From a virus, in the IMG/VR virus record IMGVR_UViG_3300044632_000621, positions 1-33,786 of that record: DNA of 33,786 nucleotides. The stretch is one strand, 5' to 3'. The notes beneath the pieces were generated by a model. It saw only the letters and a program-made list of their open reading frames with translations, was not told the DNA's origin and searched no databases. Positions 18,298-32,814 of this stretch are shown piece by piece. Within the stretch, counting starts at the first letter, position 1. Every line of letters begins with the position of its first letter. A program made the translations under genes and the position numbers.

Positions 18298-18300
18298 CCC

Positions 18301-18378: not shown

Positions 18379-18614
18379 CATGCGCAGCGGGCACGCATCG
18401 TGCAGCCCGAAGACCAGTTGAAGTCGCAGAGCCTTGCCCTACTCTGCGCCGTGCAATGCACGCGCTCGCCCGTGACCGTAGCGGCTGCAAGGTCTGCAGC
18501 GGAATGGTTCAAGTCACGGCAAGCGATACGCGGCGAAGACGCATCGCGAGGCTCCACGCACCGTCCGTGGGGCTTCGCTCCTCACAGCAAAGACGGTCGA
18601 AGGAATCAGGACGC
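18379..18614 (+). ncRNA. candidate structured non-coding RNA
   Basis: No credible gene fills 18298-18614. Clear hairpins are GCAGAG/CTCTGC (18426-18447), CGTGC-AAT-GCACG (18450-18462), GCTGCA/TGCAGC with a 5-base loop (18484-18500), and a 13-pair stem, 18546-18558 with 18566-18578, around a 7-base loop. GGTTCAAGTCA at 18506-18516 also occurs at 10927-10937 in the other gene-free region. AAGGA before ATG 18615 provides a ribosome binding site. It could be a small RNA or a regulatory leader of the ParB-like gene. Confidence 0.45.
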
Positions 18615-19439
18615 ATGGCAAAGAAGAACGCACAGGACGCGAAGCACAAGAGAATCCCCATCGCGCAGATCACGCTGGACAAGGAACTGCAGCCGAGGCA
18701 GAGCCTGACGCAGGAGGCGGTGCAGGAGTACGCCGAAGCGATGACCGAAGGCGCGCAGTTGCCTCCGTGCATCGTGGTGCACGATGGCAAGACCTACTGG
18801 TGTTGCGATGGCTTCCACCGCATCGCAGCAGCGAAGTCAATCGGCGCGAAGGAGATCGAGTGCGAGGTGCGCGCAGGCACGCGAGAGGACGCGATGTGGC
18901 TCGCAGCAGCCGCGAACCTCAAGCACGGCGTGAGGCGCACCAACATCGACAAGCGCAGGGCGGTCGCGATGGCAATCGTGGTCAAGCCCAGCGCGAGCCT
19001 TCGCGAGATCGCAGAGCATTGCGCGGTCACGCATGAGATGGTTCGCACGGTCAAGTCGCAACTCGACGCGGTGAAGGAGGTCGAGGAGTCTGCGCAGCAG
19101 GCAGTCAACGATGCAGTCGAGGACGAGGTCGTTGAGCAAGGCGACGAGGTCGGAGGCGGCATGGTCGCTGCTGAGGCGGCAATCGATGGCGCGATGGACG
19201 CGGTGCAGGCGTGCGTGCGCAAGGTCGAGGCGCTCCTTGAGACGAAGCACGCCGTCTTCGTCAACGGGCAGTCGGTCATCAACGACCTGCGCAACGCGAA
19301 GTCAGCACTCAAGCAGGCGATGCCGCACGAACGCTGCCCCGTGTGCGGCGGCGAGGGATGCGACACCTGTCGGGGCAGTGGGTGGGTGAGCAAGAAGCAG
19401 TGGGACCTGATCCCGAAGACGCAGCGAGGAGGCAAGTGA
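18615..19439 (+). CDS. ParB-like protein with C-terminal Cys (DnaJ-type) finger
   Basis: 274 residues from ATG 18615. Residues about 10-110 form a ParB/sulfiredoxin-type domain: IPIAQITLDKELQPRQSLTQ, then CDGFHRIAAAKSIGAKEIEC with the GxHR-type motif. A predicted helix-turn-helix follows (SLREIAEHCAVTHEMVRTVK, about 130-149). The last 40 residues contain CPVCGGEGCDTCRGSGW, resembling one DnaJ-type zinc repeat. Its DNA target is unknown; it may act in partition, replication or regulation. The stop overlaps the helicase start (TGATG). Confidence 0.78.
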   Translation: MAKKNAQDAKHKRIPIAQITLDKELQPRQSLTQEAVQEYAEAMTEGAQLPPCIVVHDGKTYWCCDGFHRIAAAKSIGAKEIECEVRAGTREDAMWLAAAANLKHGVRRTNIDKRRAVAMAIVVKPSASLREIAEHCAVTHEMVRTVKSQLDAVKEVEESAQQAVNDAVEDEVVEQGDEVGGGMVAAEAAIDGAMDAVQACVRKVEALLETKHAVFVNGQSVINDLRNAKSALKQAMPHERCPVCGGEGCDTCRGSGWVSKKQWDLIPKTQRGGK

Positions 19440-21133
19440 TGTCGGCAGGAATCAGCAGCAGCGGGGCGGCTCCTTCGGGAGCCGCCCTTTCACTTCGACC
19501 GTACCAGCATGAGGCAGTGCAGTGTGCCTTCGATGCACTTCGCGACAAGCGCAGCGCGCTTGTGGTGATGGCGACAGGGCTGGGCAAGACGGTCGTGTTC
19601 AGCGAGATCATCCGAAGGGCGCAGGCAAGCGGGCGCACATGGAGGACGCTTGTCCTTGCGCATCGCGAGGAGCTCATCCATCAGGCTGCGAAGACCATCG
19701 AGCGCACCGCGCGCTGCGATGTCGAGATCGAGATGGGCGACCTTCGCGCGACCGACACGCTCACGCGCCGCGCGCCCGTGATCGTGTCGAGCGTGCAGAC
19801 GCAAGTCGCAGGACGCGGCGACTACAAGAGGATGCATCGATTCAAACCCGAGCAGTTCGGGCTGGTCATTGTCGATGAGGCGCACCACGCGACCTCCGAC
19901 TCCTACAAGACGATCCTGTCCTACTACAGGCAGAACCCGTCCTGTCGAGTCATCGGGTTCACCGCAACGCCCGACCGCAGCGACGAGCAGGCACTGGGCG
20001 AGGTGTTCGATTCGTGTCCGTTCGAGTACGGGATCAGGGACGGCATTGCGGACGGGTGGCTTGTCCCGATCAAGCAGCGCGTGGTTCATGTCGGCGCGCT
20101 TGACTTCAGCGCGTGCCGAACGACTGCAGGCGACCTCAACGGGTCAGACCTCGATGCGGTCATGCAGTACGAGGAGACGCTGCACGGCATGGTCTACCCG
20201 ACCATCGAGATCGCAGGCGACCGCCGCTGCATCGTGTTCGCTGCATCGGTCGCGCACGCGCATCGAGTCGCGGAGATCATCAATCGGCACAAGGCAGGCA
20301 GTGCCGTTGCGGTCGATGCATCGACGCCGCGCGACGAACGGCGCAGCCTGTTCGCGGGCTTCGCGGAAGGTCGCTACCAGTTCCTCGTCAATGTCGGCGT
20401 AGCGACCGAAGGCTGGGACGATGCAGCACTTGACGGGCGAGGCGTTCAACTCGTCGCGATGATGCGCCCGACGAAGTCGCGCGCGTTGTACTGTCAGATG
20501 GTCGGGCGCGGCACGCGCCCGCTGCCTCGAACCGTCGATGGCATCGAAGGTGCAGAGGATCGTCTCGCGGCAATCGCAGCGAGCGCAAAGCCTCATGTGA
20601 CCGTCCTCGACTACTGCGGCAACGCGGGGCGGCACAAGTTGATCCACGCCGTCGATGCGCTCGCGGGTCGCGAGTCACAGGCTGCGGAGCGCGCAGAGGC
20701 TTCGGTGCGTGCGCGTGCGGAGGACGAGGAGATCGATGTCCTCGCCGCGCTGACGCATGAGGAAGTGGCGATCAGGCTTGAGAACGAGGCGAGGCAGCGC
20801 AAGGGGCTTGTGGTTCGCGCGCAGTTCGCGACTCAAGACATCGATCCCTTCAGCCTCATCGAACTCACGCCCGACAGGCAGGCGGCATGGGAGAAGGGCA
20901 TTCCCGCGAGCGACAAGCAACTCGAATGTCTCCGCAGGCTTCGCGTTGCGATCCCCGACCTCCTGACTCGCGGCGAGGCAAAGCGTCTCATCGATGCTGC
21001 GATCTCGACCCCGACCCCGAAGCAGCAGGCGATGCTGATCCGTCACGGGTTCGACCCGAGCGACTACGACCGCAAGAGCGCGAGTCGCATCATCGATGCG
21101 ATCATCAGTCGCGACAACGGGAGGAACCGATGA
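19439..21133 (+). CDS. superfamily 2 DNA helicase
   Basis: 564 residues from ATG 19439, with GAGGAGG upstream. SF2 motifs: LRPYQHEAV (residues 19-27), Walker A ATGLGKT (45-51), DEAH (about 145-148), motif III TATPDRSDEQ (about 177-186), an SF2 second half with NVGVATEGWDDA, and motif VI QMVGRGTRP (about 353-361). It likely unwinds DNA for replication or recombination, alongside the primase two genes later. The C-terminal 130 residues resemble no catalytic domain I know. Unusually, the first codons contain a strong hairpin (see 19464-19487). Confidence 0.86.
   Translation: MSAGISSSGAAPSGAALSLRPYQHEAVQCAFDALRDKRSALVVMATGLGKTVVFSEIIRRAQASGRTWRTLVLAHREELIHQAAKTIERTARCDVEIEMGDLRATDTLTRRAPVIVSSVQTQVAGRGDYKRMHRFKPEQFGLVIVDEAHHATSDSYKTILSYYRQNPSCRVIGFTATPDRSDEQALGEVFDSCPFEYGIRDGIADGWLVPIKQRVVHVGALDFSACRTTAGDLNGSDLDAVMQYEETLHGMVYPTIEIAGDRRCIVFAASVAHAHRVAEIINRHKAGSAVAVDASTPRDERRSLFAGFAEGRYQFLVNVGVATEGWDDAALDGRGVQLVAMMRPTKSRALYCQMVGRGTRPLPRTVDGIEGAEDRLAAIAASAKPHVTVLDYCGNAGRHKLIHAVDALAGRESQAAERAEASVRARAEDEEIDVLAALTHEEVAIRLENEARQRKGLVVRAQFATQDIDPFSLIELTPDRQAAWEKGIPASDKQLECLRRLRVAIPDLLTRGEAKRLIDAAISTPTPKQQAMLIRHGFDPSDYDRKSASRIIDAIISRDNGRNR
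19464..19490 (+). terminator. terminator-like hairpin inside the start of the helicase gene
   Basis: GGGCGGCTCC (19464-19473) pairs perfectly with 19478-19487 around a very stable TTCG tetraloop, followed by TTT and C. It looks like an intrinsic terminator with a weak T-run but lies in codons 9-17 of the helicase. It may attenuate transcription or slow ribosomes at the gene start. Confidence 0.45.
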
Positions 21134-21354
21134 GCGACAACATCAAGGGGCGCATCGCCTTCGTGCGCGTGCGGATCATGTCGCACCTGTCCGAAGTGGT
21201 CGAAGGCAGCGTGCGGGATGAGTGGGTGTGCCAGCCCGTCACGAAGGGAGGCAGGGACATCGAAGGCGCGTCCTGCCCGTGGGTGCCTCGCGAGGCATTG
21301 CTGACCGTCGAGGAGATCAAGGCGGCGATCTCGCCGCAGAAGGGCAAGGCATGA
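21130..21354 (+). CDS. hypothetical small protein
   Basis: 74 residues from ATG 21130, overlapping the helicase stop (ATGA), with GGGAGGAA upstream. Sequence features are a KGRIAFVRVRIMSHLSEVVE start and a WVPREALLTVEEIKAAI segment near the end. No motif recognised. The tight overlaps on both sides place it firmly inside the replication operon. Confidence 0.6.
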   Translation: MSDNIKGRIAFVRVRIMSHLSEVVEGSVRDEWVCQPVTKGGRDIEGASCPWVPREALLTVEEIKAAISPQKGKA

Positions 21355-21554
21355 GGAAGGAAAGCAAGACGGTGCGTGTTGATGCGCAGACGCACCTCGA
21401 CATGATGAGGCTCGCGCATCGCATGAAGGTGACCAGCGGGAGGCACTACAGCCTCGTGGATGTCGTGCGGGCGGGTCTGACCGCGCTCGCAGTTCAGCAA
21501 GCACGAAAGGAGAGACGCGATGGCGTTCCAGTTGATCGACAGGGCGACAGGTGA
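21351..21554 (+). CDS. small ribbon-helix-helix-like protein
   Basis: 67 residues from ATG 21351, overlapping the previous stop. The pattern SKTVRVDAQTHLDMMRLAHR (a strand, then a helix), then YSLVDVVRAGLTALAVQQAR, resembles a ribbon-helix-helix DNA-binding domain of the CopG/Arc type. It may regulate transcription, or be a lone antitoxin-like protein; no toxin partner is seen beside it. It overlaps the primase gene by 35 bases in another frame. Confidence 0.55.
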   Translation: MRKESKTVRVDAQTHLDMMRLAHRMKVTSGRHYSLVDVVRAGLTALAVQQARKERRDGVPVDRQGDR

Positions 21555-22377
21555 GTTGGTGTTCGACGGGCAGCGGGTGTCCTCCCGACTGCCTTGTCCT
21601 GTGTGCAGTCACCTGCACAGCAAGCAGTCATGGTGTCTGGTCGATCCGATCAGGCAGCGGGCGATCTGCCCGCGCGTCGAGAGCCGATACAGGATCGGTG
21701 ACGCGGGATGGATGCACGGGCTTGGCGAGGTGACGGCGAACAGCCTCGCGCAAGTCAGGCAGCCCGAGCGCGAGGTCGCAGACTTCAGCACGGCGTGGCT
21801 GTCCGCGAGGCAGGCAATCGAGGCGGTCGACATCGAGCGACTCGCGAAGCGCCTGTGCCTGCCCGAAGCCTTCGTGTCGACCGTCCCGTGCGGTCTGCAT
21901 CGCAACTGCTGGGCGTTCCCCATGCGCATCCCATGCGAGTCGGAGGTTCCCGATTGGGTCGTCTGCGGGCTGAAGTTGCGCAACGAGACGGGCAAGTTCT
22001 GCGCGAAGGGTTCCCGCATCGGGCTCATCGTCCCGCACGACTTCGACCGAAAGGGAGACACACTCGTCGTGACCGAAGGGGAAAGCGACCTCATGGTCGC
22101 GGCGGGATGGGGACTCAATGCAGTCGCCCGCGCAGGATGCGAGCAGAGCGTGCAGCAGATCGCCCTGCTCGCTCGCGGGCGCAGGCTTGTCATCGTGTCC
22201 GACAAGGACGAGGCGGGGCGGCGGGGTGCCGCTCGGCTCGCGTCCGTGTGCAAGGCGCGCGCGAAGTGGGTTACCATCATGGAGCCCCCATGCAAGGACC
22301 TTCGCGAATGGCACGCGCAAGGCGCGACCTCTGCTGACTTCAACTGGCGGCTGCGCTGTTTGCCTCGCCCAGCCTGA
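21520..22377 (+). CDS. TOPRIM DNA primase
   Basis: 285 residues from ATG 21520, with AAAGGAGAGA upstream. An N-terminal zinc site is suggested by C26, C29, C39 and C50 (LPCPVCSHLHS, WCLVD, ICPR). The TOPRIM domain is clear: VVTEGESDLMVAAGWGLNAV (catalytic Glu about 185) and IVSDKDEAGRRGAARLA (Asp about 228 and 230). This matches small phage primases that make RNA primers on lagging-strand DNA. It ends the transcription unit; an intrinsic terminator begins 31 bases after the stop. Confidence 0.8.
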   Translation: MAFQLIDRATGELVFDGQRVSSRLPCPVCSHLHSKQSWCLVDPIRQRAICPRVESRYRIGDAGWMHGLGEVTANSLAQVRQPEREVADFSTAWLSARQAIEAVDIERLAKRLCLPEAFVSTVPCGLHRNCWAFPMRIPCESEVPDWVVCGLKLRNETGKFCAKGSRIGLIVPHDFDRKGDTLVVTEGESDLMVAAGWGLNAVARAGCEQSVQQIALLARGRRLVIVSDKDEAGRRGAARLASVCKARAKWVTIMEPPCKDLREWHAQGATSADFNWRLRCLPRPA

Positions 22378-22407
22378 CCTCATACACTGTCTTCATCTTT
22401 TCCCCCG

Positions 22408-22451
22408 CGCCCGCCGCGTCATCGTGACGCGGCGGGCGTTTTTTTGTTTTT
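22408..22451 (+). terminator. strong intrinsic terminator
   Basis: A perfect 14-pair GC-rich stem, 22408-22421 with 22425-22438, and a 3-base loop are followed by seven Ts, one G and five more Ts. It is by far the clearest terminator in the window and separates the replication block from the DNA-modification operon. Confidence 0.93.
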
Positions 22452-22456
22452 GCGTC

Positions 22457-22462
22457 TAGGCT
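22457..22462 (+). promoter_or_regulatory. -10 box TAGGCT for the DNA-modification operon (leaderless)
   Basis: TAGGCT, identical to the box at 747-752, is six bases before GTG 22469, exactly the same spacing. There is no Shine-Dalgarno sequence. The -35 region falls in the terminator arm and is weak (GGGCGT). A fresh promoter is needed here because of the terminator just upstream. Confidence 0.55.
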
Positions 22463-22468
22463 ACGCGC

Positions 22469-22678
22469 GTGGACAAGCAGCCCTGCATCGAATGCGAAGC
22501 AAAGCGAAAGGCGTGCGAGGAGCGCGCCAATCGATGGCTCGCGTCCAATGCGTTCTGCGATGAGCAACTCCGCTTCCTGCTGAACTACATCGACTACCAC
22601 CGTGACAGATCGGAGAAGCGCGAATGGATCGAGCGAATGAGAGCGAAGGTGCAATGGATCATCGACAACATCGAGTGA
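22469..22678 (+). CDS. hypothetical small protein, first gene of the modification operon
   Basis: 69 residues from GTG 22469, leaderless by the promoter position. Contains PCIECEAKRKACEERANRW near the start (CxxC plus one more Cys) and is otherwise charged and helical. No family recognised. It is translationally linked to the RusA-like gene through a GTGA overlap. Confidence 0.55.
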   Translation: MDKQPCIECEAKRKACEERANRWLASNAFCDEQLRFLLNYIDYHRDRSEKREWIERMRAKVQWIIDNIE

Positions 22679-23085
22679 TCGTCATGGGCAAGCCCATCGC
22701 GCAGCCGCGCCCGCGCTTCAGTATGCGAGGAGGCTTCGCTCGCGCATTCGTGCCGAAGGATCATGCGGTGCACTCGTACCGCAACGCGATCATCGCTGAA
22801 GTCAAGCGGCTGCGGCTCCCATGCGTCGAAGGACCTGTGAGGCTTGAGGTCGTGTTCTCATTCGCAACGCAGAAGAAGTCGCAGCACGGCACCTATCGCA
22901 TTGCGCGCCCCGACCTAGACAACCTTGAGAAGGCAGTCATGGACGCGCTCACCGATGCGGGAGCATGGCGCGATGACTCGCAGGTCGCCTTCAAGTGCAG
23001 CACCAAAGTGCATGGTCGGATCGATGCGACCAGCATCCTCATCAAGCCGATGGAGTTCGACACTGATGCCGTGGAGACCGAATAG
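22675..23085 (+). CDS. rusA: RusA-family Holliday junction resolvase
   Basis: 136 residues if GTG 22675 is used (overlaps the previous stop); ATG 22684, three codons later, is the alternative. Motifs GKPIAQPRPRF (residues about 5-15) and RPDLDNLEKAVMDALTDAGA, then WRDDSQV, carry the conserved acidic residues of RusA, which cuts four-way junctions made in recombination and replication. Full length for the family. It overlaps the HNH gene by 20 bases. Confidence 0.85.
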   Translation: MIVMGKPIAQPRPRFSMRGGFARAFVPKDHAVHSYRNAIIAEVKRLRLPCVEGPVRLEVVFSFATQKKSQHGTYRIARPDLDNLEKAVMDALTDAGAWRDDSQVAFKCSTKVHGRIDATSILIKPMEFDTDAVETE

Positions 23086-23725
23086 CGTTGGCGACAAGCG
23101 CAAGTCGAGGTACGGTCACGACTGGCAGAAGCAGCGCGCCGCGACCTTGAGGGCTGAACCGCTCTGCAGGCTATGCCTGTCGGTCGGTCGCACGGTCGCG
23201 GCTGTGGTCGTGGATCACATCAAGCCTCTCGAGGACGGCGGCACGAACGAGCAGTCGAACTTGCAGGCGCTGTGCAAGCGTTGCCATGACTCGATCAAGA
23301 CTCCTGCCGATGTGAGGCTTCGGCGTGCAGCAGACCGAACCATCGTGTGCGTGCGTTGCGTGTCCTTCGATGAAACCATCTCCTTCGGGTTCGATGTTCG
23401 GGCGTTGAGGCGCACGCTCGCAGCAGAGTTCGGATTCGCCCATGCCCACGCCATCGCCCATGCGGCTGCGTTCGGTGCAGTCGAGGGAGCAGCGCGAGGC
23501 GACCTGCCTCCCGTGCGACTGCTCATCCTTACCGACGATGCGGAGCAGGCGAGGCTGCTTGCAGCGAGGCATGGGTGCAGCCTGACCGTCGAAGGCATTG
23601 GGCAGATACCGCGCGTGGGTGATCGGTCAGCGGCTGAAGTCGAGTGGTTGGCGAAACGCTACGGGGTTGAGTACAGTTTGAGGCATGGACAGTCCTTGCA
23701 AGGACAGCAGCCTTCGAGTGCGTGA
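23066..23725 (+). CDS. HNH endonuclease with an extra C-terminal domain
   Basis: 219 residues from ATG 23066, inside the end of rusA. The N-terminal 85 residues are a full HNH nuclease: C34xxC37, VVDHIKPLEDGG (D50-H51), SNLQALC70KRCH74. Phage HNH proteins often nick DNA or help packaging. The remaining 130 residues are not usual for small HNH proteins; they include an RLLILTDDAEQARLLAARHG strand-helix unit resembling a Rossmann-like fold. Possible roles are DNA modification or self-restriction. The next gene starts within its last 41 bases. Confidence 0.75.
   Translation: MPWRPNSVGDKRKSRYGHDWQKQRAATLRAEPLCRLCLSVGRTVAAVVVDHIKPLEDGGTNEQSNLQALCKRCHDSIKTPADVRLRRAADRTIVCVRCVSFDETISFGFDVRALRRTLAAEFGFAHAHAIAHAAAFGAVEGAARGDLPPVRLLILTDDAEQARLLAARHGCSLTVEGIGQIPRVGDRSAAEVEWLAKRYGVEYSLRHGQSLQGQQPSSA
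23648..23677 (+). promoter_or_regulatory. possible internal leaderless promoter before the first DpdA-like gene
   Basis: TTGGCG (23648-23653), 18 bases, then TACAGT (23672-23677), seven bases before ATG 23685. There is no Shine-Dalgarno sequence. It could allow separate expression of the deazaguanine genes. Confidence 0.45.
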
Positions 23726-24488
23726 CATCGCGCCGACTGTGTACCTTGCGCACCTTGCAGGCTCGACTGCCCAGTCGAGTCTCGAAAGGCTTGGGACGGT
23801 CGATGCGCCGCCACTCCTGATCTCGTATGCCTACGCGAAGGAGTGGGAGCGCGTGCGCGCGCAGACCCCTTGCAGGGAGTGGGTCCTCGACAGTGGAGCA
23901 TTCACTGCGCGGAGCATGGGTATCACCATACGCCTTGAGGAGTTCATCGACTACGCGCTGCAGCGCATGGCTGATGATCCGCGACTCACCGAAGTCTTCG
24001 CACTCGATGTGATCGGCGACCACAAGGCGACGATGCGCAACACCGAAGCGATGTGGGCGCGGGGCATCAAGGCGATCCCATGCTTTCACGAAGGCAGCCC
24101 GTGGGCAGCCCTGCGCGACATGATGCGGTTCCCGAAGATCGCGCTGGGTGGCGTCGCGCGTGCATCGACAGCCCGCAAGGACGAGTTCGCGGCGCAGGTG
24201 TTTGCCCGCGCATGGCCGAAGCAGATACACGGGTTTGGGTACGGCGCACAGCGGCTCGTCCTCAAGTATCCTTGGCACAGCGTCGATGCGAGTTCATGGA
24301 ACAACGGCATTCGATATGCGCAATGGTGGTCGATGGCAGCGCGCGGGAGCCTCAAAGGAGGTCGCTTCGCGCGCGTCAAGAACGCAGGCAGTCTGTTGCA
24401 CGGTGAGATCGAGCACTTCGCGCGCGTAGAGCGCGCTGCAAGAAGCAAGTGGAGGAGCATATGGCAGAGCGGCGCGTTGTCGTGTTGA
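23685..24488 (+). CDS. DpdA-like 7-deazaguanine DNA transglycosylase, paralogue 1
   Basis: 267 residues from ATG 23685. It carries diverged TGT (tRNA-guanine transglycosylase) landmarks in order: VLDSGAFTA (compare TDSGGFQ, the catalytic Asp), FALDVIGD (compare the substrate-binding LDE region), IPCFHEG, KIALGGVAR, IHGFGYG (compare MGVG), and SVDASSW (compare the nucleophile Asp region). DpdA enzymes of phages and bacterial dpd islands use this fold to swap guanine in DNA for preQ0 or derivatives. Context with queC, queD, queE and folE makes this strong. It overlaps queC by 28 bases. Confidence 0.8.
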   Translation: MDSPCKDSSLRVRDIAPTVYLAHLAGSTAQSSLERLGTVDAPPLLISYAYAKEWERVRAQTPCREWVLDSGAFTARSMGITIRLEEFIDYALQRMADDPRLTEVFALDVIGDHKATMRNTEAMWARGIKAIPCFHEGSPWAALRDMMRFPKIALGGVARASTARKDEFAAQVFARAWPKQIHGFGYGAQRLVLKYPWHSVDASSWNNGIRYAQWWSMAARGSLKGGRFARVKNAGSLLHGEIEHFARVERAARSKWRSIWQSGALSC

Positions 24489-25132
24489 TGTCGGGAGGTC
24501 TAGACTCGTCCGTGCTTGCGTCCGTGCTTGAGGCATCGGGCTACGAGGTCAACGGTCTGTCCATCGACTATGGGCAAAGGCATCGGCGCGAACTCGAATG
24601 CGCAGTCGCGTACTGCAGGGCTGGCGCGATCCCGCATAAGGTGGTCACGCTCGAGGGCTTCGCTAGCCTCATCCCGACGAGTTCGCAGACGAACCGCGAA
24701 GTCGCAGTTCCTCACGGGCACTACGCCCATGACTCGATGAAGTCGACAGTCGTGCCGAATCGAAACATGGTCATGCTGTCCATCGCAGCAGCCCATGCCA
24801 TTGCGATCAAGGCAGACGCAATCGCAATCGCTGCGCACGCAGGCGACCACACGATCTACCCTGACTGCCGGCGGGAGTTCCTCAATGCCTTCGTGGACGC
24901 GGTGCGCGAAGGCAACTGGGATGCAGAGGAGTTCAGTCTGTTCGCGCCGTTCGTTGATGTGGACAAGGCAGGCATCGTGACGATGGGGCAAGAGGTCAAT
25001 GCCCCGATGCACCTGACCTACTCATGCTACGAGGGGCGGGCAAGGCATTGCGGGCGATGCGGCACTTGTGTCGAGAGGCGTGAGGCGTTTCAGCAGGCAG
25101 GCATTACCGACCCAACGGAGTACGAAGCATGA
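24461..25132 (+). CDS. queC: QueC, 7-cyano-7-deazaguanine (preQ0) synthase
   Basis: 223 residues from ATG 24461, chosen for the GGAGGAG just upstream; a GTG 12 bases earlier is less likely. The ATP pyrophosphatase loop SGGLDSS lies at residues 11-17 and the zinc site Cys188, Cys197, Cys200, Cys203 near the end, all as in QueC. The enzyme turns CDG, ammonia and ATP into preQ0, the precursor of queuosine, archaeosine and deazaguanine-modified DNA. It appears complete. ATGA overlap with the ParB-like gene. Confidence 0.94.
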   Translation: MAERRVVVLMSGGLDSSVLASVLEASGYEVNGLSIDYGQRHRRELECAVAYCRAGAIPHKVVTLEGFASLIPTSSQTNREVAVPHGHYAHDSMKSTVVPNRNMVMLSIAAAHAIAIKADAIAIAAHAGDHTIYPDCRREFLNAFVDAVREGNWDAEEFSLFAPFVDVDKAGIVTMGQEVNAPMHLTYSCYEGRARHCGRCGTCVERREAFQQAGITDPTEYEA

Positions 25133-25689
25133 AAGTCGAGAAGGTCAAGATCGAGTCGCTGGTCGAGGACGCGGCGAACGCGCGCGCGCACCCCGAGAAG
25201 AACATCGGAGTCATCGCAGAGTCGCTGCGACAGTTCGGGCAGCAGAAGCCCATCGTCGTTGGCGAGGGGGATGTCGTGCTTGCGGGCAATGGACTCCTCG
25301 CCGCAGCAAAGCGCATTGGCATGACTCATGTCGAGATCGTGCGCACCAAACTCAAAGGCAGCGAGGCGCGGGCGTTCGCGCTTGCCGACAATCGCAGCGG
25401 CGAACTGTCCGAATGGGATTGGGAGTCGCTTGCGCGCGAACTTGAGTCGCTGCAGGCTGCGGGCTTCGACATCGCGACCATCGGGTGGGAGTCGCATGAG
25501 GCTGAACTGGTCATGGCAGCGGAGTTCACCGCGCAGCCCGTGACCGAAGACGCGCCCGAAGCCCGAAGCGGGAGGCTGGTCATCGCGTTCTCGCCCGAGC
25601 AAAGCGAGGAGGTTCGTTCGCACATCGAGCGCATGAACCGCAAGGACGCAGCGACTGCAGTGCTCGACGCACTTCGGGCTTGGGAATGA
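25129..25689 (+). CDS. ParB-like protein within the deazaguanine operon
   Basis: 186 residues from ATG 25129, overlapping the queC stop. Residues 1-95 are a ParB/sulfiredoxin-type domain: VEKVKIESLVEDAANARAHP, then VVLAGNGLLAAAKRIGMTHV, then FALADNR. The remaining 90 residues have no clear domain. Bacterial dpd islands include a ParB-like partner, DpdB, that works with DpdA to insert preQ0 into DNA. Being placed between queC and a DpdA paralogue makes a DpdB-like helper role plausible, but that is inference. The other ParB-like gene (18615) has a different C-terminus. Confidence 0.72.
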   Translation: MKVEKVKIESLVEDAANARAHPEKNIGVIAESLRQFGQQKPIVVGEGDVVLAGNGLLAAAKRIGMTHVEIVRTKLKGSEARAFALADNRSGELSEWDWESLARELESLQAAGFDIATIGWESHEAELVMAAEFTAQPVTEDAPEARSGRLVIAFSPEQSEEVRSHIERMNRKDAATAVLDALRAWE

Positions 25690-26453
25690 CCTGCCTCTAC
25701 TTCGCCACCCCGCTCGCGAATCCCGCCATCGAGTGCTTCAAGAGGCACGCGCATGAGCCGTGCAACATCCTCACCTCGTTCGCCTTCAAGGACAAGGTGG
25801 ACACCTACATCGATGCGCTCCCGCGTGCGCGGCTGATGCTCGATAGCGGTGCCTACACGGCATGGTCGTGCGGGCAGACCGTGGACATCAATGCACTCAT
25901 CGAGTACGCGCGCCACCCGCGATGGTCAGAGGTAGTTGCGCTCGATGTCATCGGGGATGCAGACGCAAGCGTGCGCAATGCGATCACGATGAAGGAGGCG
26001 GGGCTCGATGTCATGCCCGTCTTCCACATAGGCGACCCCATCGAGCACCTGCTGTTCTACAAGTCGAACTTCTCAAAGGTCGGGCTGTCTTGCAGGTTCG
26101 GTGAGCCGCTGCATGAGTCGCTCGCCTTCATCAGGAAGTGCTTCGCAGTTGCATGGCCGTACCGCTTTCATTCGTTCGGGTGGGTCAGCGAGAAGGTGCT
26201 TCGCAAGTTCCCTTTCGACAGTGCGGACGCAAGCACATGGGTCAATCCTCATCGCTTCGGTGCGGTCAAGCCCTGCGGCGACTCGATGAGCGGAGGCATG
26301 AGGGGGCAGAGTTTCAAACTCAAGCGCGAGAGGTCGGGTAACATCGACCTCTGGATGGTGGTTGAGAGATACAAGACGCTCGAAAGGAGCCTTGAGCAGC
26401 AATGGAGACGCGAACTGAAGACGGTGCGCCCCGCTACCTCGGCAAGCAAGTGA
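25686..26453 (+). CDS. DpdA-like 7-deazaguanine DNA transglycosylase, paralogue 2
   Basis: 255 residues from ATG 25686, overlapping the ParB-like stop. It has the same ordered motifs as the gene at 23685 but with much sequence change between: MLDSGAYTA, VALDVIGDADA, MPVFHIGDP, KVGLSCRFGE, YRFHSFGWVS and SADASTW. Both Asp-bearing motifs are kept, so it is probably active. Two such genes in one operon could act on different DNA motifs, use different bases (preQ0 versus preQ1), or form a heterodimer. A tRNA target cannot be excluded. Confidence 0.78.
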   Translation: MTCLYFATPLANPAIECFKRHAHEPCNILTSFAFKDKVDTYIDALPRARLMLDSGAYTAWSCGQTVDINALIEYARHPRWSEVVALDVIGDADASVRNAITMKEAGLDVMPVFHIGDPIEHLLFYKSNFSKVGLSCRFGEPLHESLAFIRKCFAVAWPYRFHSFGWVSEKVLRKFPFDSADASTWVNPHRFGAVKPCGDSMSGGMRGQSFKLKRERSGNIDLWMVVERYKTLERSLEQQWRRELKTVRPATSASK

Positions 26454-26803
26454 GGGGAGTCGCGGATGCGCTCGACACCATCGAATGGACGAAGCAGACG
26501 CGATGCACTCACACGCTCGACTGCACGGAGTTCACCAGCCTGTGTCCTGTGACGGGACAGCCCGACTTCGGGCGCATCGAGATCGTGTACTCGCCTGTCG
26601 CGCACATCGTTGAGACGAAGTCGCTCAAGTTGTGGCTGCGCAAGTGGCGCGAGCGCGGCGCATTCAACGAGGTCATCGTTGAGGAGGTCGCGGACGAGTT
26701 CTTCGCAGCAGTCAAGCCTGCGTGGGTTCGAGTCACGGGACGGTTCAACCATCGCGGCGGCATCGCAGTCAGCGCAGTCACGATGCGAGGCGAGTCATGC
26801 TGA
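26402..26803 (+). CDS. queF: QueF-like preQ0 reductase (atypical)
   Basis: 133 residues from ATG 26402, starting inside the previous gene. Core motif EFTSLCPVTGQPDF with Cys48 and Asp55 at the spacing of the catalytic Cys/Asp of short QueF enzymes, then the nucleotide-site motif ETKSLKLWLRKWR (from residue 71). QueF reduces preQ0 to preQ1 with NADPH. One oddity: where QueF usually reads F-H-E, this protein has FNE (about 88-90), so a normally conserved His is Asn. It may be a variant reductase or an amidating QueF-like enzyme. Confidence 0.85.
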   Translation: METRTEDGAPRYLGKQVRGVADALDTIEWTKQTRCTHTLDCTEFTSLCPVTGQPDFGRIEIVYSPVAHIVETKSLKLWLRKWRERGAFNEVIVEEVADEFFAAVKPAWVRVTGRFNHRGGIAVSAVTMRGESC

Positions 26804-27207
26804 TCGAGCGGCGTTACCGCTTCTACGCGGCGCACCGCAATGTCGGGCTAGGCGGGAAGTGCTCGCGACTGCACGGGCATCGATACGGCATCGCGGTCGT
26901 GCTGAAGGTCGAGCGAGGTCCTCACGGCGTGGGCATCAAGTTCGAGGACATCGATGCGAAACTCGCGCCTGTCTTCGAGTCGTTCGACCATCGCGCGCTG
27001 CTGCACGACAAGGACGAACTCGCACACAAAGGCATCGAGGGCGCGATTGTGTTCCCGTTCGAGCCCAGTACGGAGCGACTCGCGGCATACCTCTTGCAGT
27101 TGTGCCGCTTCGCGATCCCCGAAGTCGTGTCCTTGTCCGTCACGGAGACGGACAGCGCGACCGTGACCGCAGCAGAGGAGGACATCATCCCATGGCTTAC
27201 ACAGTGA
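26797..27207 (+). CDS. queD: QueD, 6-carboxytetrahydropterin synthase
   Basis: 136 residues from ATG 26797, overlapping queF by 7 bases. Zinc ligands His13 (FYAAHR), His26 and His28 (LHGHRYG), catalytic Cys22 (four residues before His26 as in E. coli QueD) and His65 (SFDHRALLHD) are all present. The enzyme converts dihydroneopterin triphosphate, the FolE product, into CPH4. Length is normal. The start of queE lies within its last 16 bases. Confidence 0.92.
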   Translation: MLIERRYRFYAAHRNVGLGGKCSRLHGHRYGIAVVLKVERGPHGVGIKFEDIDAKLAPVFESFDHRALLHDKDELAHKGIEGAIVFPFEPSTERLAAYLLQLCRFAIPEVVSLSVTETDSATVTAAEEDIIPWLTQ

Positions 27208-27842
27208 ACGAAGTGTTCTACTCGCCGCAAGGCGAAGGGATGCGCGCGGGTCAGATGTCCGTGTTCGTGCGCTTCACAGGCTGCAACCTCAAGTGCAGCA
27301 AGGAGGCGGGCGAGAAGAGCATCGGCGGCTTCGACTGCGACACGGAGTTCGCATCAGGTCGCCGCATGACCGCAGAGGACATCCTCGCCGCGTGCTTCGA
27401 TGCGATGAAGAGCGGCGGGCTTCGCAGCGACTACAAGCCCTGCGCCGATCATCGCCCGTGGATCGTCCTCACGGGCGGCGAGCCTGCGCTGCAGGTCGAT
27501 GCCGAACTGCTCGAGGTGCTGCACGGAGCAGGCTTCTTGTGTGCCATCGAAACCAATGGCAGCATCGACCTCGCAGACTTGCGCCTTGATTGGATCACCG
27601 TGAGCCCGAAGGTCGCGGAGCATTGCGTGAGGCAACTCAAGGCAGACGAGGTGAAGTATGTCCGTGGGCATGGGCAGGCAATCCCAAAGCCCGCGTGCAA
27701 GGCAAGGCATCAACTCATCAGCCCAGCCTTCGATGGGCTTGCACTCGACCGCCGCGCATTCGATTGGTGCCTGCGGCTCATCAAGGAGAATCCCGAATGG
27801 CGCATGAGCGTCCAGATGCACAAGGCATGGATGGTTCGATGA
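27192..27842 (+). CDS. queE: QueE, radical SAM 7-carboxy-7-deazaguanine synthase
   Basis: 216 residues from ATG 27192. It begins TVNEVFYSPQGEGMRAGQMS, the usual QueE start, then the cluster motif Cys31-x3-Cys35-x13-Cys49-DTEF. Most QueE proteins have Cx3Cx2C, so about 11 residues are inserted before the last Cys; similar loops are known in some QueE branches. GGEP for SAM binding follows (LTGGEPALQ), then IETNGS. The enzyme rearranges CPH4 to CDG. Overlaps folE by ATGA. Confidence 0.92.
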   Translation: MAYTVNEVFYSPQGEGMRAGQMSVFVRFTGCNLKCSKEAGEKSIGGFDCDTEFASGRRMTAEDILAACFDAMKSGGLRSDYKPCADHRPWIVLTGGEPALQVDAELLEVLHGAGFLCAIETNGSIDLADLRLDWITVSPKVAEHCVRQLKADEVKYVRGHGQAIPKPACKARHQLISPAFDGLALDRRAFDWCLRLIKENPEWRMSVQMHKAWMVR

Positions 27843-28399
27843 CTCGCGAACGCGCAGAGCAGGCAGTGCGCGACCTCCTCGTCTACATGGGCGAGGACAT
27901 CACGCGCGAAGGGCTGCGAGACACGCCCGCGCGCGTTGCACGCGCGATGCGTGAGATGAGCAGCGGGCTGCAAGTCGATGCGAGGTCATGCCTCGGCACG
28001 GTCTTCAAGGAGCCTTGCGATCAGATGATCCTCGTGCGAGGCGTGCGGTTCGTGTCCATGTGCGAACACCACCTCCTCCCATTCGTGGGCGAGGCAACGG
28101 TCGCCTACTTCGCGCGCGACCGCATCGTCGGTCTGTCGAAGATCCCACGCATGATCGACGCGCTCTCACGCCGACCACAGGTGCAAGAGCGACTCACGCA
28201 ACAGATCGCGCGCACCTTGTCCGATGCCATCGATGCGAAGGGCGTGGGCGTGCTGCTGCGCGCATCGCACTCATGCATGGGATGCAGAGGCGCAAGGCAG
28301 CCCGATGCGGACATGGTCACCTCATGCCTCCTCGGAGTCATGCGTGACGAGGAGGCTCGCGCAGAGTTCATCGCGCTGGCTGGGCTGCGGTCGCCTTGA
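27839..28399 (+). CDS. folE: FolE, GTP cyclohydrolase I
   Basis: 186 residues from ATG 27839; ATG 27827, four codons earlier in the same frame, is also possible. Motifs: SMCEHHLLPFVG with Cys75 and His78 (zinc), IVGLSKIPRMIDALSRRPQV, QERLTQQIA, and SHSCMGCRGAR with Cys146 (third zinc ligand). It makes dihydroneopterin triphosphate from GTP, the first step of the preQ0 route. It completes a phage-encoded path from GTP, and is the last gene before a 127-base gap. Confidence 0.93.
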   Translation: MTRERAEQAVRDLLVYMGEDITREGLRDTPARVARAMREMSSGLQVDARSCLGTVFKEPCDQMILVRGVRFVSMCEHHLLPFVGEATVAYFARDRIVGLSKIPRMIDALSRRPQVQERLTQQIARTLSDAIDAKGVGVLLRASHSCMGCRGARQPDADMVTSCLLGVMRDEEARAEFIALAGLRSP

Positions 28400-28425
28400 C
28401 GAGGTCGGCGGGAGGGGGAAAGGGG

Positions 28426-28440
28426 TGTCAAAGTTTGACA
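28426..28440 (+). promoter_or_regulatory. perfect palindrome TGTCAAAGTTTGACA in the folE-terminase gap
   Basis: TGTCAAA-G-TTTGACA contains GTCAA-N3-TTGAC and, with the preceding GG, the GGTGTCAA half-site found upstream of the HTH gene. It lies about 87 bases before the terminase start, so it is a likely operator for late-gene control. Confidence 0.6.
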
Positions 28441-28512
28441 GCAGTTGTTCCTGATCCTGAGGCGGTCCCTCGCGCGCGCGTTCACGGGATAGAGGGAAAC
28501 GCGGGAAACTGG

Positions 28513-28518
28513 TAGAGT
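28513..28518 (+). promoter_or_regulatory. -10-like box TAGAGT before the small terminase gene
   Basis: TAGAGT followed by GCC, eight bases before ATG 28527, with no Shine-Dalgarno sequence. The same word TAGAGTGCC precedes the protease gene at 32254. No -35 box is clear, suggesting an activator or phage-modified polymerase. Confidence 0.45.
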
Positions 28519-28526
28519 GCCCCTCG

Positions 28527-29003
28527 ATGGCAGGTCCTCCTCCCAAACCAACCGCCCAACTTCGACTCGCAGGGTCTTGGCGGGCTCGTAAACGGGCTAC
28601 AGAACCGTCTGTGGCGGTCGGCGTGCCTGCCCCTCCCGAATGGCTGCCTGACGATGCGAAGGCGGCATACGAGGATCTAGCCCGCCTACTCGAACCGATG
28701 CGAGTGGTGTCGCCCGTCGATGCCGTCTCGCTGGCGCAACTCGCGGAGTACCTTGCACGGTGGAAGAAGGCGACTGCCGCACTTGCGAAGTACGGCGAGG
28801 TCATCCCGACCCGCGACGATGCGGGCAAGGTGATCGGGTTCAGACGGTCGCCGTATGTCGCCATGCAGATCGAGTACGGTCTGATGCTGCGGCGACTCAT
28901 GTCGGAGTTCGGTCTGACCCCTTCGGCAAGAGCAAGGCTGAGTAACGACGATGCCCAAGCCCAAACGGAAGCCCTCTTCTCGCGCAAGTACAAAGCGGGA
29001 TGA
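28527..29003 (+). CDS. terminase small subunit (P27-like)
   Basis: 158 residues from ATG 28527. The N-terminus MAGPPPKPTAQLRLAGSWRA, then PAPPEWLPDDAKAAYEDLAR and SPVDAVSLAQLAEYLARWKK, is the usual layout of P27-family small terminases, which recognise phage DNA and present it to the large subunit. Length is right. It overlaps the large terminase gene by 53 bases. Confidence 0.85.
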   Translation: MAGPPPKPTAQLRLAGSWRARKRATEPSVAVGVPAPPEWLPDDAKAAYEDLARLLEPMRVVSPVDAVSLAQLAEYLARWKKATAALAKYGEVIPTRDDAGKVIGFRRSPYVAMQIEYGLMLRRLMSEFGLTPSARARLSNDDAQAQTEALFSRKYKAG

Positions 29004-30603
29004 GTGGTCGGCTCGCGCCTTCAACCTCCTGCCTAGATACGATGCGATGGCGACCGCAGGCTCGACCGTGTGGTGCGCTGACTCTGCGCGGCACGCCATC
29101 GAGTTCATCGAGCGCCTGTGCCGATACACCGAAGGCGCATGGGCAGGCAAGCCGTTCGTGTTGCTGCCTTGGCAGCGCGCACTCGTAGGCAACCTGTACG
29201 GGTGGAAGCGTCCCGATGGGACGAGGCGGTACAGGCAGGCGCACATCCTCATCCCGCGCAAGGCAGGCAAGACCGAACTCGCGGCTGCGCTCGCGCTGTA
29301 TCACTTGCTCGCCGACGATGAGCCCACGCCCGAAGTCGTGGGCATCGCCCGCGACCGCTCGCAAGCGAAACTGTGTCTCACTCGCGCATCGCGCATGGCA
29401 CTTGCAGAGCCACTCATCGCGCAGCGCACCGAGCAGTATCAAGGCAGACTGGTCGCCCCGCAGTCCTACGGCGTGTACAAGGTCCTGTCTGCCGATGCGC
29501 CTTCAGCCCACGGCCTTCATGTGAGTGCGGCAATCGCGGACGAGGTTCACGCGATGGAGAACCGTCGCGAACTGTGGGAGGCAGTGATGACCGCGATGGG
29601 CGCGCGTCAGCAGCCGCTCATGGTGTCGATCACGACTGCGGGCGTGCTTCGCGAGTCGCTGGAGCATGACCTGTTCACCTATGGGCAGCGAGTGTGCGAG
29701 CAGACGATCTCGAATCCATCCTTCCTCCCATGCCTTCACTACGCCGATGCAGAGGCACCGTGGGACAAGGAAGAGACATGGCGACAGGCGAACCCGTCGC
29801 TGGGCTACACCACGAAGGTCGAGTGGTACGAGCAGGAGGCGAAGCGCGCGCACGATCAACCGTCCTACGAGTCGCCATTCCGTACCTACTACCTCTGTCA
29901 GCACATCACGGCTGCGGAGCGTTGGATCAGGATGAGCGAATGGGAAGGCTGCATGGAGGAGATCGACCTCGACAGGCTGCGAGGTCTGCCGTGCTACATG
30001 GGCATCGACCTCGCGCAGACAACCGACCTCTCATGCGTGTCGGTCGTGTGGGTCGATGGAGACAGGCTCATCGTTCGCTGCTGGTCGTTCGCGCCTGAAG
30101 TGGGCGCGCAGATTCGCGCGAGGCGCGATGGCGTGCCTTACCTCGAATGGTCGCGCAGAGGTTGGCTGACCATCACTGGCGGAGATACGACCGACTACTC
30201 GTACATCCTCAAGCAGATCGATGAGCTCGCGCAGAGGTTCCGTCCGCGCATCATCGGGTATGACCCATACAACGCGCAGAACCTCGCGCATGAACTTGAG
30301 TCGAAGGGTCTGAATGTCGTGCGTGTCCCGCAGTCGTTCCTCAACCTCTCAACGCCTACGAGGATGTGGGAGCGTGCGATCAGTGGGAAGAAGTTGAGTC
30401 ACGACGGCAACCCCGTGCTATCGTGGGCGATGTCCAACACGGTCATCGAGCGCGATGCAAGCGAGAACCCTCGCCCGTCAAAGCGCAGATCGGTTGAACG
30501 CATCGACCCCGTGGTGGCTTCGATCATCGCGGTCGCTGCAAGCCTTCACGATGAAAGGCAGGCCGCGAGCGTGTACGAGGAGCGTGGACTGATATGGCTC
30601 TGA
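28951..30603 (+). CDS. terminase large subunit
   Basis: 550 residues from ATG 28951. Walker A PRKAGKT at residues 102-108, Walker B AAIADEVHA near 193-201, a coupling SITTAG region (about 226-231), then the nuclease domain with GIDLAQTTDLSC (Asp353) and IGYDPYNAQN. This is the ATP-driven motor that packages DNA and cuts it. The HK97-like relatives often make cohesive ends, but cos or pac use cannot be told here. Overlaps the portal by 10 bases. Confidence 0.93.
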   Translation: MPKPKRKPSSRASTKRDEWSARAFNLLPRYDAMATAGSTVWCADSARHAIEFIERLCRYTEGAWAGKPFVLLPWQRALVGNLYGWKRPDGTRRYRQAHILIPRKAGKTELAAALALYHLLADDEPTPEVVGIARDRSQAKLCLTRASRMALAEPLIAQRTEQYQGRLVAPQSYGVYKVLSADAPSAHGLHVSAAIADEVHAMENRRELWEAVMTAMGARQQPLMVSITTAGVLRESLEHDLFTYGQRVCEQTISNPSFLPCLHYADAEAPWDKEETWRQANPSLGYTTKVEWYEQEAKRAHDQPSYESPFRTYYLCQHITAAERWIRMSEWEGCMEEIDLDRLRGLPCYMGIDLAQTTDLSCVSVVWVDGDRLIVRCWSFAPEVGAQIRARRDGVPYLEWSRRGWLTITGGDTTDYSYILKQIDELAQRFRPRIIGYDPYNAQNLAHELESKGLNVVRVPQSFLNLSTPTRMWERAISGKKLSHDGNPVLSWAMSNTVIERDASENPRPSKRRSVERIDPVVASIIAVAASLHDERQAASVYEERGLIWL

Positions 30604-32219
30604 CTGACCTCATCCTCCGTGCGTTCAAGTCGACGCAGCCCGCTGGTCAGCCGCCCTCGAGCGGTGTGCAGGTCTACACGGGCACGGTGTCGGACACGGG
30701 TCAGCACATCACGCCTCTCGCTGCGCTGTCGTGCATCACGGTCAATGCGTGCGTGCAGGCAATCGCGACCGAACTCGCGAAGTTGCCTTGGAGTGTGTTC
30801 GCAGAGAACGACAGCGGTCGAACTCTGCTGAAGGCGCATCCCGTGCATCGAGTGCTTCGCCATGAGGCGAACCCAGAGATGTCCGCGCTGACATGGCGCG
30901 AGTTGATGCTGACCAGCGCGTGCCTCACGGGCAACGGCTTCTCCTACATCGAGCGCGGGTCTGACGGTCGACCCACGGGGCTGTACTTCCTGCGTCCCGA
31001 CTGCATGAATGTCACCAAACTCCCGACAGGCGAGGTGGTGTACATCTACAGCGGAGGAACCGACGAGCGTGGGCGGGCTGTGTTCTCGTCCTTCGACATC
31101 TTCCACCTGATGTGGTTGTCTCCCGATGGGCTGCTTGGGTACTCGCCCATCTCGATGGCGCGGCAGGCAATCGGTCTTTCCCTCGCAGCCGAAGCCTTCG
31201 GTGCCTCGTACTGGCGCAACGCATCGCGACCTAGCGGCATCCTCTCGACGGAGAACCAACTCTCGCCCGAAGCAATCCAGCGAATGCGCGAGTCATGGGA
31301 GGCAAGGATGCGAGGCGTGCAGAGCGCGGGCGCCATTGCCGTGCTTGAGAACGGGCTGAAGTACCAGCAGATCAGTCTGTCGCCGCAGGACTCGCAATGG
31401 CTTGAGGGGCGTGCCTTTCAGCGCGAGGAGATCTGCGCGATGTATCGAGTGCCGCCGAGCGTGATCGGCGTAGGAGACAAGCAGTCGTATGCAAGCGCGG
31501 AGCAGGCAAACCGCGAGTGGGTCACGAACTGCCTCTCCTCATGGGCTGCACGACTTGAGTCTGAAGCGCAGCGCAAACTCATCAGGCGCGACGAGCAAGT
31601 CATCACGGAGATCAGTTTCGACACGATGCTCCGTGCTGACCTGATGACCCGCTACCGCGCCTACTCGATTGCAAGGCAGTTCGGTTTCATGTCGGTCAAC
31701 GAGATTCGCGCGGACATGAACCGCCCGAGCCTTGGCGAAGAAGGCGACATCTACCTCCAGCCATCGAACATGGTGCCGACCAGCAACGCCTTCGGAGGCG
31801 AGAACCTCGCGCCCGATCAAGGCAGCAAGGTTCCGTTCACCGATCCCGATGCCGTGCCTGACGAGAAGCGCGAGCAGGCGGTTGAGGACATCGACCTCAA
31901 GCCGACCGATGCAATGGCGCGCAACGCGCAACGCGGTCTAGACCTTCGCAAGGAGTTCAAGCGCGGCGGCACGCCTGTCGGTGTTGCACGGGCGCGGGAC
32001 ATCGCGAACAAGGCAACGCTGTCGCCCGACACGGTCGGGCGCATGGTGTCCTACTTCGCTCGGCACGAAGTCGACAAGAAGGGCAAGGGCTTCAACAGCG
32101 GAGAGGACGGATACCCGTCCGCAGGACTCATCGCATGGCTGCTGTGGGGAGGCGACAGCGGCAAGTCATGGGCGAATGCGAAGTGGGAGCAGATCAAGCG
32201 CGCCCGTGGTGAGGGATGA
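30594..32219 (+). CDS. portal protein with extra C-terminal domain
   Basis: 541 residues from ATG 30594. The first 430 residues match HK97-family portals in order: ITVNACVQAIATELAKLPW, a LTWRELMLTSACLTGNGFSY segment, and MYRVPPSVIGVGDKQSYASA. The portal is the ring through which DNA enters the head. Residues about 440-541 form a separate region, with RGGTPVGVARARDIANKATL then a YPSAGLIAWLLWGGDSGKSW segment. That module is commonly attached to other phage head proteins, so this is a fusion. Confidence 0.9.
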   Translation: MALTDLILRAFKSTQPAGQPPSSGVQVYTGTVSDTGQHITPLAALSCITVNACVQAIATELAKLPWSVFAENDSGRTLLKAHPVHRVLRHEANPEMSALTWRELMLTSACLTGNGFSYIERGSDGRPTGLYFLRPDCMNVTKLPTGEVVYIYSGGTDERGRAVFSSFDIFHLMWLSPDGLLGYSPISMARQAIGLSLAAEAFGASYWRNASRPSGILSTENQLSPEAIQRMRESWEARMRGVQSAGAIAVLENGLKYQQISLSPQDSQWLEGRAFQREEICAMYRVPPSVIGVGDKQSYASAEQANREWVTNCLSSWAARLESEAQRKLIRRDEQVITEISFDTMLRADLMTRYRAYSIARQFGFMSVNEIRADMNRPSLGEEGDIYLQPSNMVPTSNAFGGENLAPDQGSKVPFTDPDAVPDEKREQAVEDIDLKPTDAMARNAQRGLDLRKEFKRGGTPVGVARARDIANKATLSPDTVGRMVSYFARHEVDKKGKGFNSGEDGYPSAGLIAWLLWGGDSGKSWANAKWEQIKRARGEG

Positions 32220-32241
32220 TGCAATGCAGTTCGCCCGCCGA

Positions 32242-32247
32242 TAGAGT
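32242..32247 (+). promoter_or_regulatory. -10-like box TAGAGT before the protease gene
   Basis: TAGAGT followed by GCC, six bases before ATG 32254, lying in the 34-base gap after the portal. No Shine-Dalgarno sequence. Same 9-base word as upstream of the small terminase. Confidence 0.45.
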
Positions 32248-32253
32248 GCCTGC

Positions 32254-32814
32254 ATGATCGAGACACGCACAGCCCCACTCACGCTCTCAATCGAGACGCG
32301 CGGCGAAGGTCTACCCGATGCGCTCGTCGGATACGCTGCGACCTTCGACCAGCCGTATCCCGTCGATATCGTGCAGGAGACAATCGACCGCAGGGCGTTC
32401 ACTCGCACGCTGGTCGAGCAGCCTGATGTGTTCGCACTCATCGGTCACGACATGAGTCGAGTCATCGCACGCACGAAGAACGGGACTCTGCGCCTTTCGA
32501 CCGATGAGCGAGGGCTGCGCGTCGAGATCACTCCTGTTGACACGCAGGAGAGCCGCGATGCGTTCACTCTCGTCCGAAGCGGCACCATCGACTCGATGTC
32601 CTTCGGGTTCCGCGTTGCGGATCAGAAGTACGAGAACAGGAACGGTGAAGTGCATCGGCGCATCCTCGATGTCGATCTCTTCGAGGTGTCGCTGGTCGCC
32701 TTCCCCGCGAACCCGTCCGCAACCTTGAGTATGCGCGACCGCGAACTCGCGGCTGCAGCCCGACTCTCCTTCATCCCGCTTCTCCCGCCGCCGCCTCTCG
32801 CGGTCCTTGCATGA
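32254..32814 (+). CDS. HK97-type prohead protease
   Basis: 186 residues from ATG 32254. Typical S78-family features: ALVGYAATFDQPYPV, FALIGHDMSRVIAR with the catalytic His, then TIDSMSFGFRV with the catalytic Ser, and a DVDLFEVSLVAFPANPSA end. It trims scaffold or capsid N-termini during head maturation. Length is short but normal for this family. It sits directly before the capsid gene. Confidence 0.9.
   Translation: MIETRTAPLTLSIETRGEGLPDALVGYAATFDQPYPVDIVQETIDRRAFTRTLVEQPDVFALIGHDMSRVIARTKNGTLRLSTDERGLRVEITPVDTQESRDAFTLVRSGTIDSMSFGFRVADQKYENRNGEVHRRILDVDLFEVSLVAFPANPSATLSMRDRELAAAARLSFIPLLPPPPLAVLA

Follow-up and report, generated by a model that had tools for sequence, protein, structure and literature searches.

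Phage operons that combine FolE, QueD, QueE, QueC, and QueF with a single DpdA, often accompanied by a ParB-like gene, are known, and the DNA of Streptococcus phage Dp-1, which likewise encodes a unimodular QueF, was found to contain 2′-deoxy-7-aminomethyl-7-deazaguanine (dPreQ1), with no detectable 2′-deoxy-7-cyano-7-deazaguanine (dPreQ0) and no 2′-deoxyarchaeosine (dG+) (PMC6884629). The DNA of phage Rosebush contains dPreQ0, and deletion of dpdA in phage CAjan abolishes DNA modification (PMC6884629). In bacterial Dpd systems, DpdA is served by DpdB, an ATPase of the ParB superfamily (PMC12839542), and ORF1 of phage CRB2 was proposed to be a dpdB homolog (PMC6392294). Known phage DpdA proteins number in the hundreds, yet the base is poorly predicted from gene content alone. 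Here, we describe an operon in a virus record of 33,786 nucleotides (IMG/VR record IMGVR_UViG_3300044632_000621, analyzed as a whole and referred to as the window), which contains genes for a complete route from GTP to 7-aminomethyl-7-deazaguanine (preQ1), by way of 7-cyano-7-deazaguanine (preQ0), together with two dpdA genes whose products differ in a putative base-contacting loop. The operon very probably makes both preQ0 and preQ1, and places at least one of them in the phage DNA. Its eight genes lie on the + strand, at positions 23685-28399, in the order dpdA-A, queC, ParB-like, dpdA-B, queF, queD, queE, and folE, and neighboring genes share 4 to 52 bases of overlap:

23685..24488, + strand: DpdA-A, predicted DNA-guanine transglycosylase (PHROG 887, 1.5e-32; loop KIALGGVARA, GG-type; predicted base preQ0)
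24461..25132, + strand: QueC, 7-cyano-7-deazaguanine (preQ0) synthase (Pfam QueC, 9.2e-62; TIGR00364 above cut-off; no Gat fusion)
25129..25689, + strand: ParB-like protein, predicted DpdB-type partner (PHROG 620, 1.2e-36; Pfam ParB_N 18.4 bits, below the cut-off of 26.3)
25686..26453, + strand: DpdA-B, predicted DNA-guanine transglycosylase (PHROG 887, 2.3e-29; loop KVGLSCRFGE; predicted base preQ1)
26402..26803, + strand: QueF, predicted unimodular preQ0 reductase (preQ1 synthase) (Pfam, 4e-23; TIGR03139 108 bits, cut-off 86.9)
26797..27207, + strand: QueD, 6-carboxytetrahydropterin synthase (Pfam PTPS, 2.5e-20)
27192..27842, + strand: QueE, radical S-adenosylmethionine 7-carboxy-7-deazaguanine synthase (TIGR04508, 1.4e-42, below the curated cut-off; PHROG 2076, 7e-31)
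27839..28399, + strand: FolE, GTP cyclohydrolase I (Pfam, 5.6e-66; TIGR00063 above cut-off)

A GTP-to-preQ1 gene route and two DNA transglycosylases in one phage, as claimed in a preliminary description of the window, are supported by the family matches, the predicted folds, and the conserved residues. DpdA-A and DpdA-B share 32% identity over 219 residues. AlphaFold (AF2) models of the two proteins (predicted local distance difference test scores of 79.7 and 83.3, respectively; predicted template modeling score of 0.81 each) were compared with solved structures, and both grouped with tRNA-guanine transglycosylases (TGTs), at Z scores of 16-17, rather than with non-TGT folds. The alignments to solved TGTs reached Z = 17.2 for DpdA-A and Z = 16.6 for DpdA-B, over 227-252 residues, and all 50 of the 50 matches listed for each model belonged to the TGT superfamily, among them complexes of TGT with preQ0 and with preQ1. 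Foldseek alone returned generic TIM barrels for DpdA-B; a second structure aligner separated the TGTs from these. The residues that are invariant across phage DpdA proteins are kept in both copies (D69, D108, H182, and D201 of DpdA-A; D53, D87, H162, and D181 of DpdA-B), and both are predicted to be catalytically intact DNA-guanine transglycosylases.

The closest solved relative by sequence was a bacterial DNA-guanine transglycosylase (PDB 7ui4), with a weak E-value. Alignment to its GGMVP stretch placed the loop at KIALGGVARA in DpdA-A and at KVGLSCRFGE in DpdA-B. In TGTs, the segment GG(L/V)(A/S)VGE contacts the 7-substituent of the base, and the DpdA loop may be the equivalent of this segment. 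A profile comparison with bacterial TGTs aligned the DSGAF region only and did not place the loop. The loop of the Dp-1 DpdA is of the S-type, and that of the DpdA of Ares, a genus-mate of Rosebush, is GG.

The defining features of QueF are Cys55, Asp62, and Glu97 (B. subtilis numbering), and the motif E(S/L)K(S/A)hK(L/Y)(Y/F/W), which binds NADPH (reduced nicotinamide adenine dinucleotide phosphate) (PMC5372742). The window QueF retains the corresponding active-site residues, C48, D55, and E90, and its motif reads ETKSLKLW, which departs conservatively from the consensus at a single position (T for S/L), as it does in its relatives. The archaeosine synthase QueF-L is a QueF homolog that does not have the NADPH-binding motif. 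This motif is present in the window QueF, which is accordingly not of that kind by its sequence and is predicted to be a preQ1 synthase, catalyzing the NADPH-dependent reduction of preQ0. The window QueF and its nearest relatives have an Asn where bacterial QueF has a His, just before the substrate-binding Glu; among phage QueF proteins with otherwise intact motifs, this position is occupied by H, M, N, C, or Y, and in view of this variation the idea that the Asn signals a lost reductase activity was set aside.

In a tree of 42 DpdA proteins, DpdA-A grouped with other GG-type proteins in a clade with support of 97/94, apart from DpdA-B. A recent tandem duplication within the lineage was considered as the origin of the pair and was rejected, since the two proteins fall in separate clades. 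Single-protein scans with DpdA-A or DpdA-B gave no IMG/VR relatives, whereas alignment-based scans did. The relatives of DpdA-A (at most 50% identity) come nearly all from ParB-DpdA-QueC-QueD-QueE-FolE operons, and QueF was absent from 47 of the 50 whole records searched, mostly of the DpdA-A clade. In a separate test, none of 50 GG-type records had a QueF, when FolE cross-hits of at most 30 bits were set aside; weak PF14489 hits (14-30 bits) were treated as such cross-hits, as in phage 9g, where the hit lies inside the annotated GTP cyclohydrolase gene. For the SCRFGE-loop relatives of DpdA-B, a QueF gene was adjacent in every locus seen. When phage DpdA proteins with known QueF status were clustered at 60% (about 150 clusters), a Ser as the first loop residue was found in 64 clusters with QueF and 8 without, and a Gly in 15 with and 67 without. 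Restriction to the clusters found through DpdA gave 52 and 8 for Ser, and 5 and 67 for Gly.

Two or three DpdA genes were found in Microbacterium phage Megan and in about 12 distinct contigs; nearly all of these lack QueF and have a single loop type. Among all loci with at least two DpdA genes, a mixed pair of Ser- and Gly-type loops is present only in the window and in a second virus record, IMGVR_UViG_3300035698_015719 (L375), and both of these have QueF. The gene order in L375 is ParB, DpdA-SCRFGE, QueF, DpdA-GGVARM, QueC, QueD, QueE, and FolE, and in both records the Ser-type dpdA adjoins queF and the Gly-type dpdA adjoins queC. The Ser-type proteins of the window and L375 are sisters (95/76). 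The Gly-type protein of L375 belongs to a sub-clade (100/100) that excludes DpdA-A, and a further scan for its relatives returned, besides L375 itself, a single contig.

These observations are best explained by a proposed division of labor between the two enzymes. FolE, QueD, QueE, and QueC would convert GTP to preQ0, part of which would be reduced to preQ1 by QueF with NADPH. DpdA-A, which has the GG loop and whose gene overlaps queC, would exchange guanine in the phage DNA for preQ0, and DpdA-B, which has the SCRFGE loop and whose gene overlaps queF, would exchange guanine for preQ1. The DNA would then contain dPreQ0 as well as dPreQ1, with the two probably located at different sites, and the modified guanines would shield the genome from host restriction enzymes. 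The assignment of preQ0 to DpdA-A and of preQ1 to DpdA-B is, in our estimate, evenly balanced between right and wrong. The more general proposal, that one loop residue (Gly or Ser) can be read, in phage DpdA proteins in general, as a code for specificity toward preQ0 or preQ1, with dPreQ0 and dPreQ1 written in one genome by two dedicated enzymes, is put forward tentatively, as somewhat less probable.

Several observations weigh against this two-base proposal. The association between loop and QueF is strong as a pattern, but only suggestive as an evolutionary test: it was not significant under phylogenetic control (median p = 0.125), and the 12 loop changes on the tree reduce to just 6 independent pairs when supported branches are counted, of which QueF changed in the same direction as the loop in 4.2, in the opposite direction in 0, and not at all in 1.8. 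Exceptions occur on both sides, including 20-odd viral contigs that form a GG clade and have QueF (FGGI loops), the GG-loop phages Rinkes and Knocker, which also have QueF, the contigs L365 and L367, and S-type records (106-110 kb) that lack QueF. The putative contact of the loop with the 7-substituent is derived from the weak sequence alignment to 7ui4 and from the precedent of TGTs. Paired DpdA genes without QueF are common (about 12 distinct loci), and a pair therefore does not require two bases. Finally, QueF may act on DNA-bound dPreQ0.

The main alternative is that both DpdA enzymes insert the same base (preQ1, or preQ0 that is reduced later) at different motifs or strands, with the second enzyme widening the range of protected sites. 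Phage CAjan reportedly carries one base at two motifs, and pairs of one loop type often occur in the absence of QueF (Megan, L105 with three copies, L111/L112, L124, L127, L128, L327, L359, and L366); because such pairs are common, this explanation keeps appreciable weight. It is nonetheless judged rather unlikely, as the pairs of the window and L375 mix two loop types, each coupled to a different biosynthetic gene, and the DpdA-A clade is nearly always without QueF. A different scheme, in which DpdA inserts preQ0 and QueF then acts on the DNA, yielding dPreQ1, or dG+ if it works as a QueF-L-like amidinotransferase, finds some encouragement in the use of preQ0-tRNA by QueF-L (PMC5485725), in the fact that earlier work left open whether free or DNA-bound preQ0 is the substrate of phage QueF (PMC6884629), and in the Asn that replaces the bacterial His in the window QueF. 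The intact NADPH motif, the TIGR03139 score above the cut-off, and the Dp-1 precedent, in which a phage QueF gave dPreQ1 and no dG+ (PMC6884629), make it improbable. TGTs act as dimers (quoted in PMC6884629), and the identity of 32% between the two copies would also suit a DpdA heterodimer in which one subunit is catalytic and the other structural, as in eukaryotic QTRT1/QTRT2, or a pair of which one copy is decaying; however, every invariant catalytic residue and an open frame are kept in both, and each has close relatives that work alone, which renders this reading highly improbable. That the genes merely boost queuosine precursors for host tRNA, with preQ1 being the bacterial queuosine precursor, is scarcely credible given the presence of two phage-type DpdA proteins, a family that inserts such bases into phage DNA.

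The ParB-like gene overlaps dpdA-B, and thus places a ParB-type domain beside dpdA, as expected of DpdB. ParB-like genes adjoin DpdA in many phages, and also in DpdA-A-type loci. The most economical reading, by analogy with the bacterial systems, is that the ParB-like protein acts as a DpdB-type helper of the transglycosylases. A second ParB-like gene, of 405 amino acids, is located at 18222-19439 in the replication region, distant from the modification operon.

Variants of the DpdA-QueF combination were observed elsewhere. In contig L106, a GG-loop DpdA is nested inside the SCRFGE clade (100/96), and the QueF homolog beside it (791-1390) has lost the NADPH motif while retaining Cys and Asp, the pattern expected of a loop that follows the available base; this homolog is a candidate phage archaeosine synthase of the QueF-L type, or a decaying gene. 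An open frame of 2453 residues in L231 (11568-18926, - strand), a virus that bears QueF, holds a second, Ser-type DpdA domain, and resembles a polyvalent protein that includes a transglycosylase module. The virus record L105, 97 kb long, has its three DpdA genes at 9911-13353 and no true QueF. An uncultured delta proteobacterium contig from a genome collection (L319) contains a SCRFGE-type DpdA with QueF, QueE, and FolE, a possible hint at the hosts of the SCRFGE clade. In Arthrobacter phage Sonali (L008:2999-3616), gp81 is annotated as DpdA-like besides gp87, and the DpdA profile matched gp87 only.

The cluster motif of the window QueE, CX3CX13C, is unusual compared with CX3CX2C, and the same spacing is common to 18 further fetched loci; QueE proteins of other contigs show further cysteine spacings (3-8, 3-9, 20-3, and 16-3). 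Neither an amidotransferase, nor a Gat-QueC fusion, nor ArcS was seen.

The gene families of the window ORFs (open reading frames), compared with PHROGs, identify the 33.8 kb record as a tailed phage. Genes for the major tail protein, tail chaperone, and tape measure lie at the start of the window, followed by recombination and replication genes in the middle and then the modification genes, which end shortly before the genes for the terminase; the remainder of the window, to its 3′ end, is taken up by portal, protease, and head genes. The following features flank the operon:

22407..22439, + strand: T-tailed terminator-like hairpin, 15 pairs, 12 of them G-C, with a TTTTTTGTTT tail, 5′ of the gene chain
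22624..23085, + strand: RusA-like Holliday-junction resolvase (Pfam RusA, 1.2e-19; PHROG 140), a neighbor outside the modification pathway
23066..23725, + strand: HNH endonuclease, a neighbor (Pfam HNH, 3.3e-11, residues 34-76)
28527..29003, + strand: terminase small subunit (PHROG 83, 1.1e-33), directly 3′ of the chain
28951..30603, + strand: terminase large subunit (PHROG 9, 1.3e-144)

The C-terminal ~130 residues of the HNH endonuclease had no match in any family searched. The preliminary description placed the chain at 22469-28399, and all of the genes it named are present on the + strand with strong family matches; the first 1.2 kb of that interval (22469-23725), however, is occupied by a 69-amino-acid ORF, the RusA-like resolvase, and the HNH gene. 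The claim that the chain, starting after the strongest terminator, forms its own transcription unit is only half supported, and such a unit is not established. No better T-tailed hairpin than that at 22407-22439 was found, but terminator-like hits in 14000-33786 were as frequent as expected by chance (10 found, 9.7 expected), and none of them fell in the interval that separates folE from the terminase genes.

The mixed DpdA pair, its recurrence in L375, and the association between loop and QueF provide a direct test of DpdA base choice. If the two-base proposal is true, the phage DNA bears two protective letters rather than one, the base in many phage genomes would be predictable from the DpdA loop, and paired DpdA enzymes would be tools to place two distinct bases in DNA, including one with the reactive aminomethyl group of preQ1.

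Among described phages, Dp-1 (HQ268735) resembles the window in that a single operon combines an S-loop DpdA with QueF, QueC, QueD, QueE, and FolE, but it has one DpdA, and its operon has no ParB-like gene. In Arthrobacter phage Mufasa8 (MN586027), the genes for DpdA, a ParB-like protein, QueF, QueC, QueD, QueE, and FolE are consecutive and the loop is S-type; unlike the window, it has one DpdA, and its QueF has a Cys where bacterial QueF has a His and the window QueF an Asn. Mycobacterium phages Rinkes and Knocker share the ParB-like gene, QueF, DpdA, QueCDE, and FolE directly 5′ of the terminase, but have a single DpdA with a GG-type loop, whereas Megan (MN586020) has two adjacent DpdA genes, QueCDE, and FolE 5′ of the terminase, but no QueF, and both of its loops are GG-type. 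One-DpdA versions of the operon are also found in many viral contigs. L375 is like the window in its mixed pair, with the SCRFGE DpdA beside QueF and the GGVARM DpdA beside QueC, and in having ParB, QueD, QueE, and FolE; it differs in gene order, and its GG DpdA comes from another sub-clade. The TGT-like DpdA and ParB-like DpdB of bacterial Dpd systems (dpdA-K; PMC12839542) have counterparts in the window, which is set apart by its phage biosynthetic operon, with no dpdC or restriction genes recognized; in PADLOC, six operon proteins gave no match to Dpd families, the remaining ORFs having been compared with PHROGs only.

Literature searches, in which most subscription papers were outside reach, found no paper on two DpdA proteins in one phage. 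The preliminary description had predicted a DNA base of preQ1 or a derivative, alone or with preQ0. The route to it is supported, but preQ1 in phage DNA was already known from Dp-1 (PMC6884629) and is not the new part; the prediction is sharpened here to two enzymes and two bases, and extended by what separates the two DpdA proteins and by the fit of the ParB-like gene to a DpdB-type partner. What distinguishes the locus from the known systems is the second DpdA, that is, two loop types paired together with QueF.

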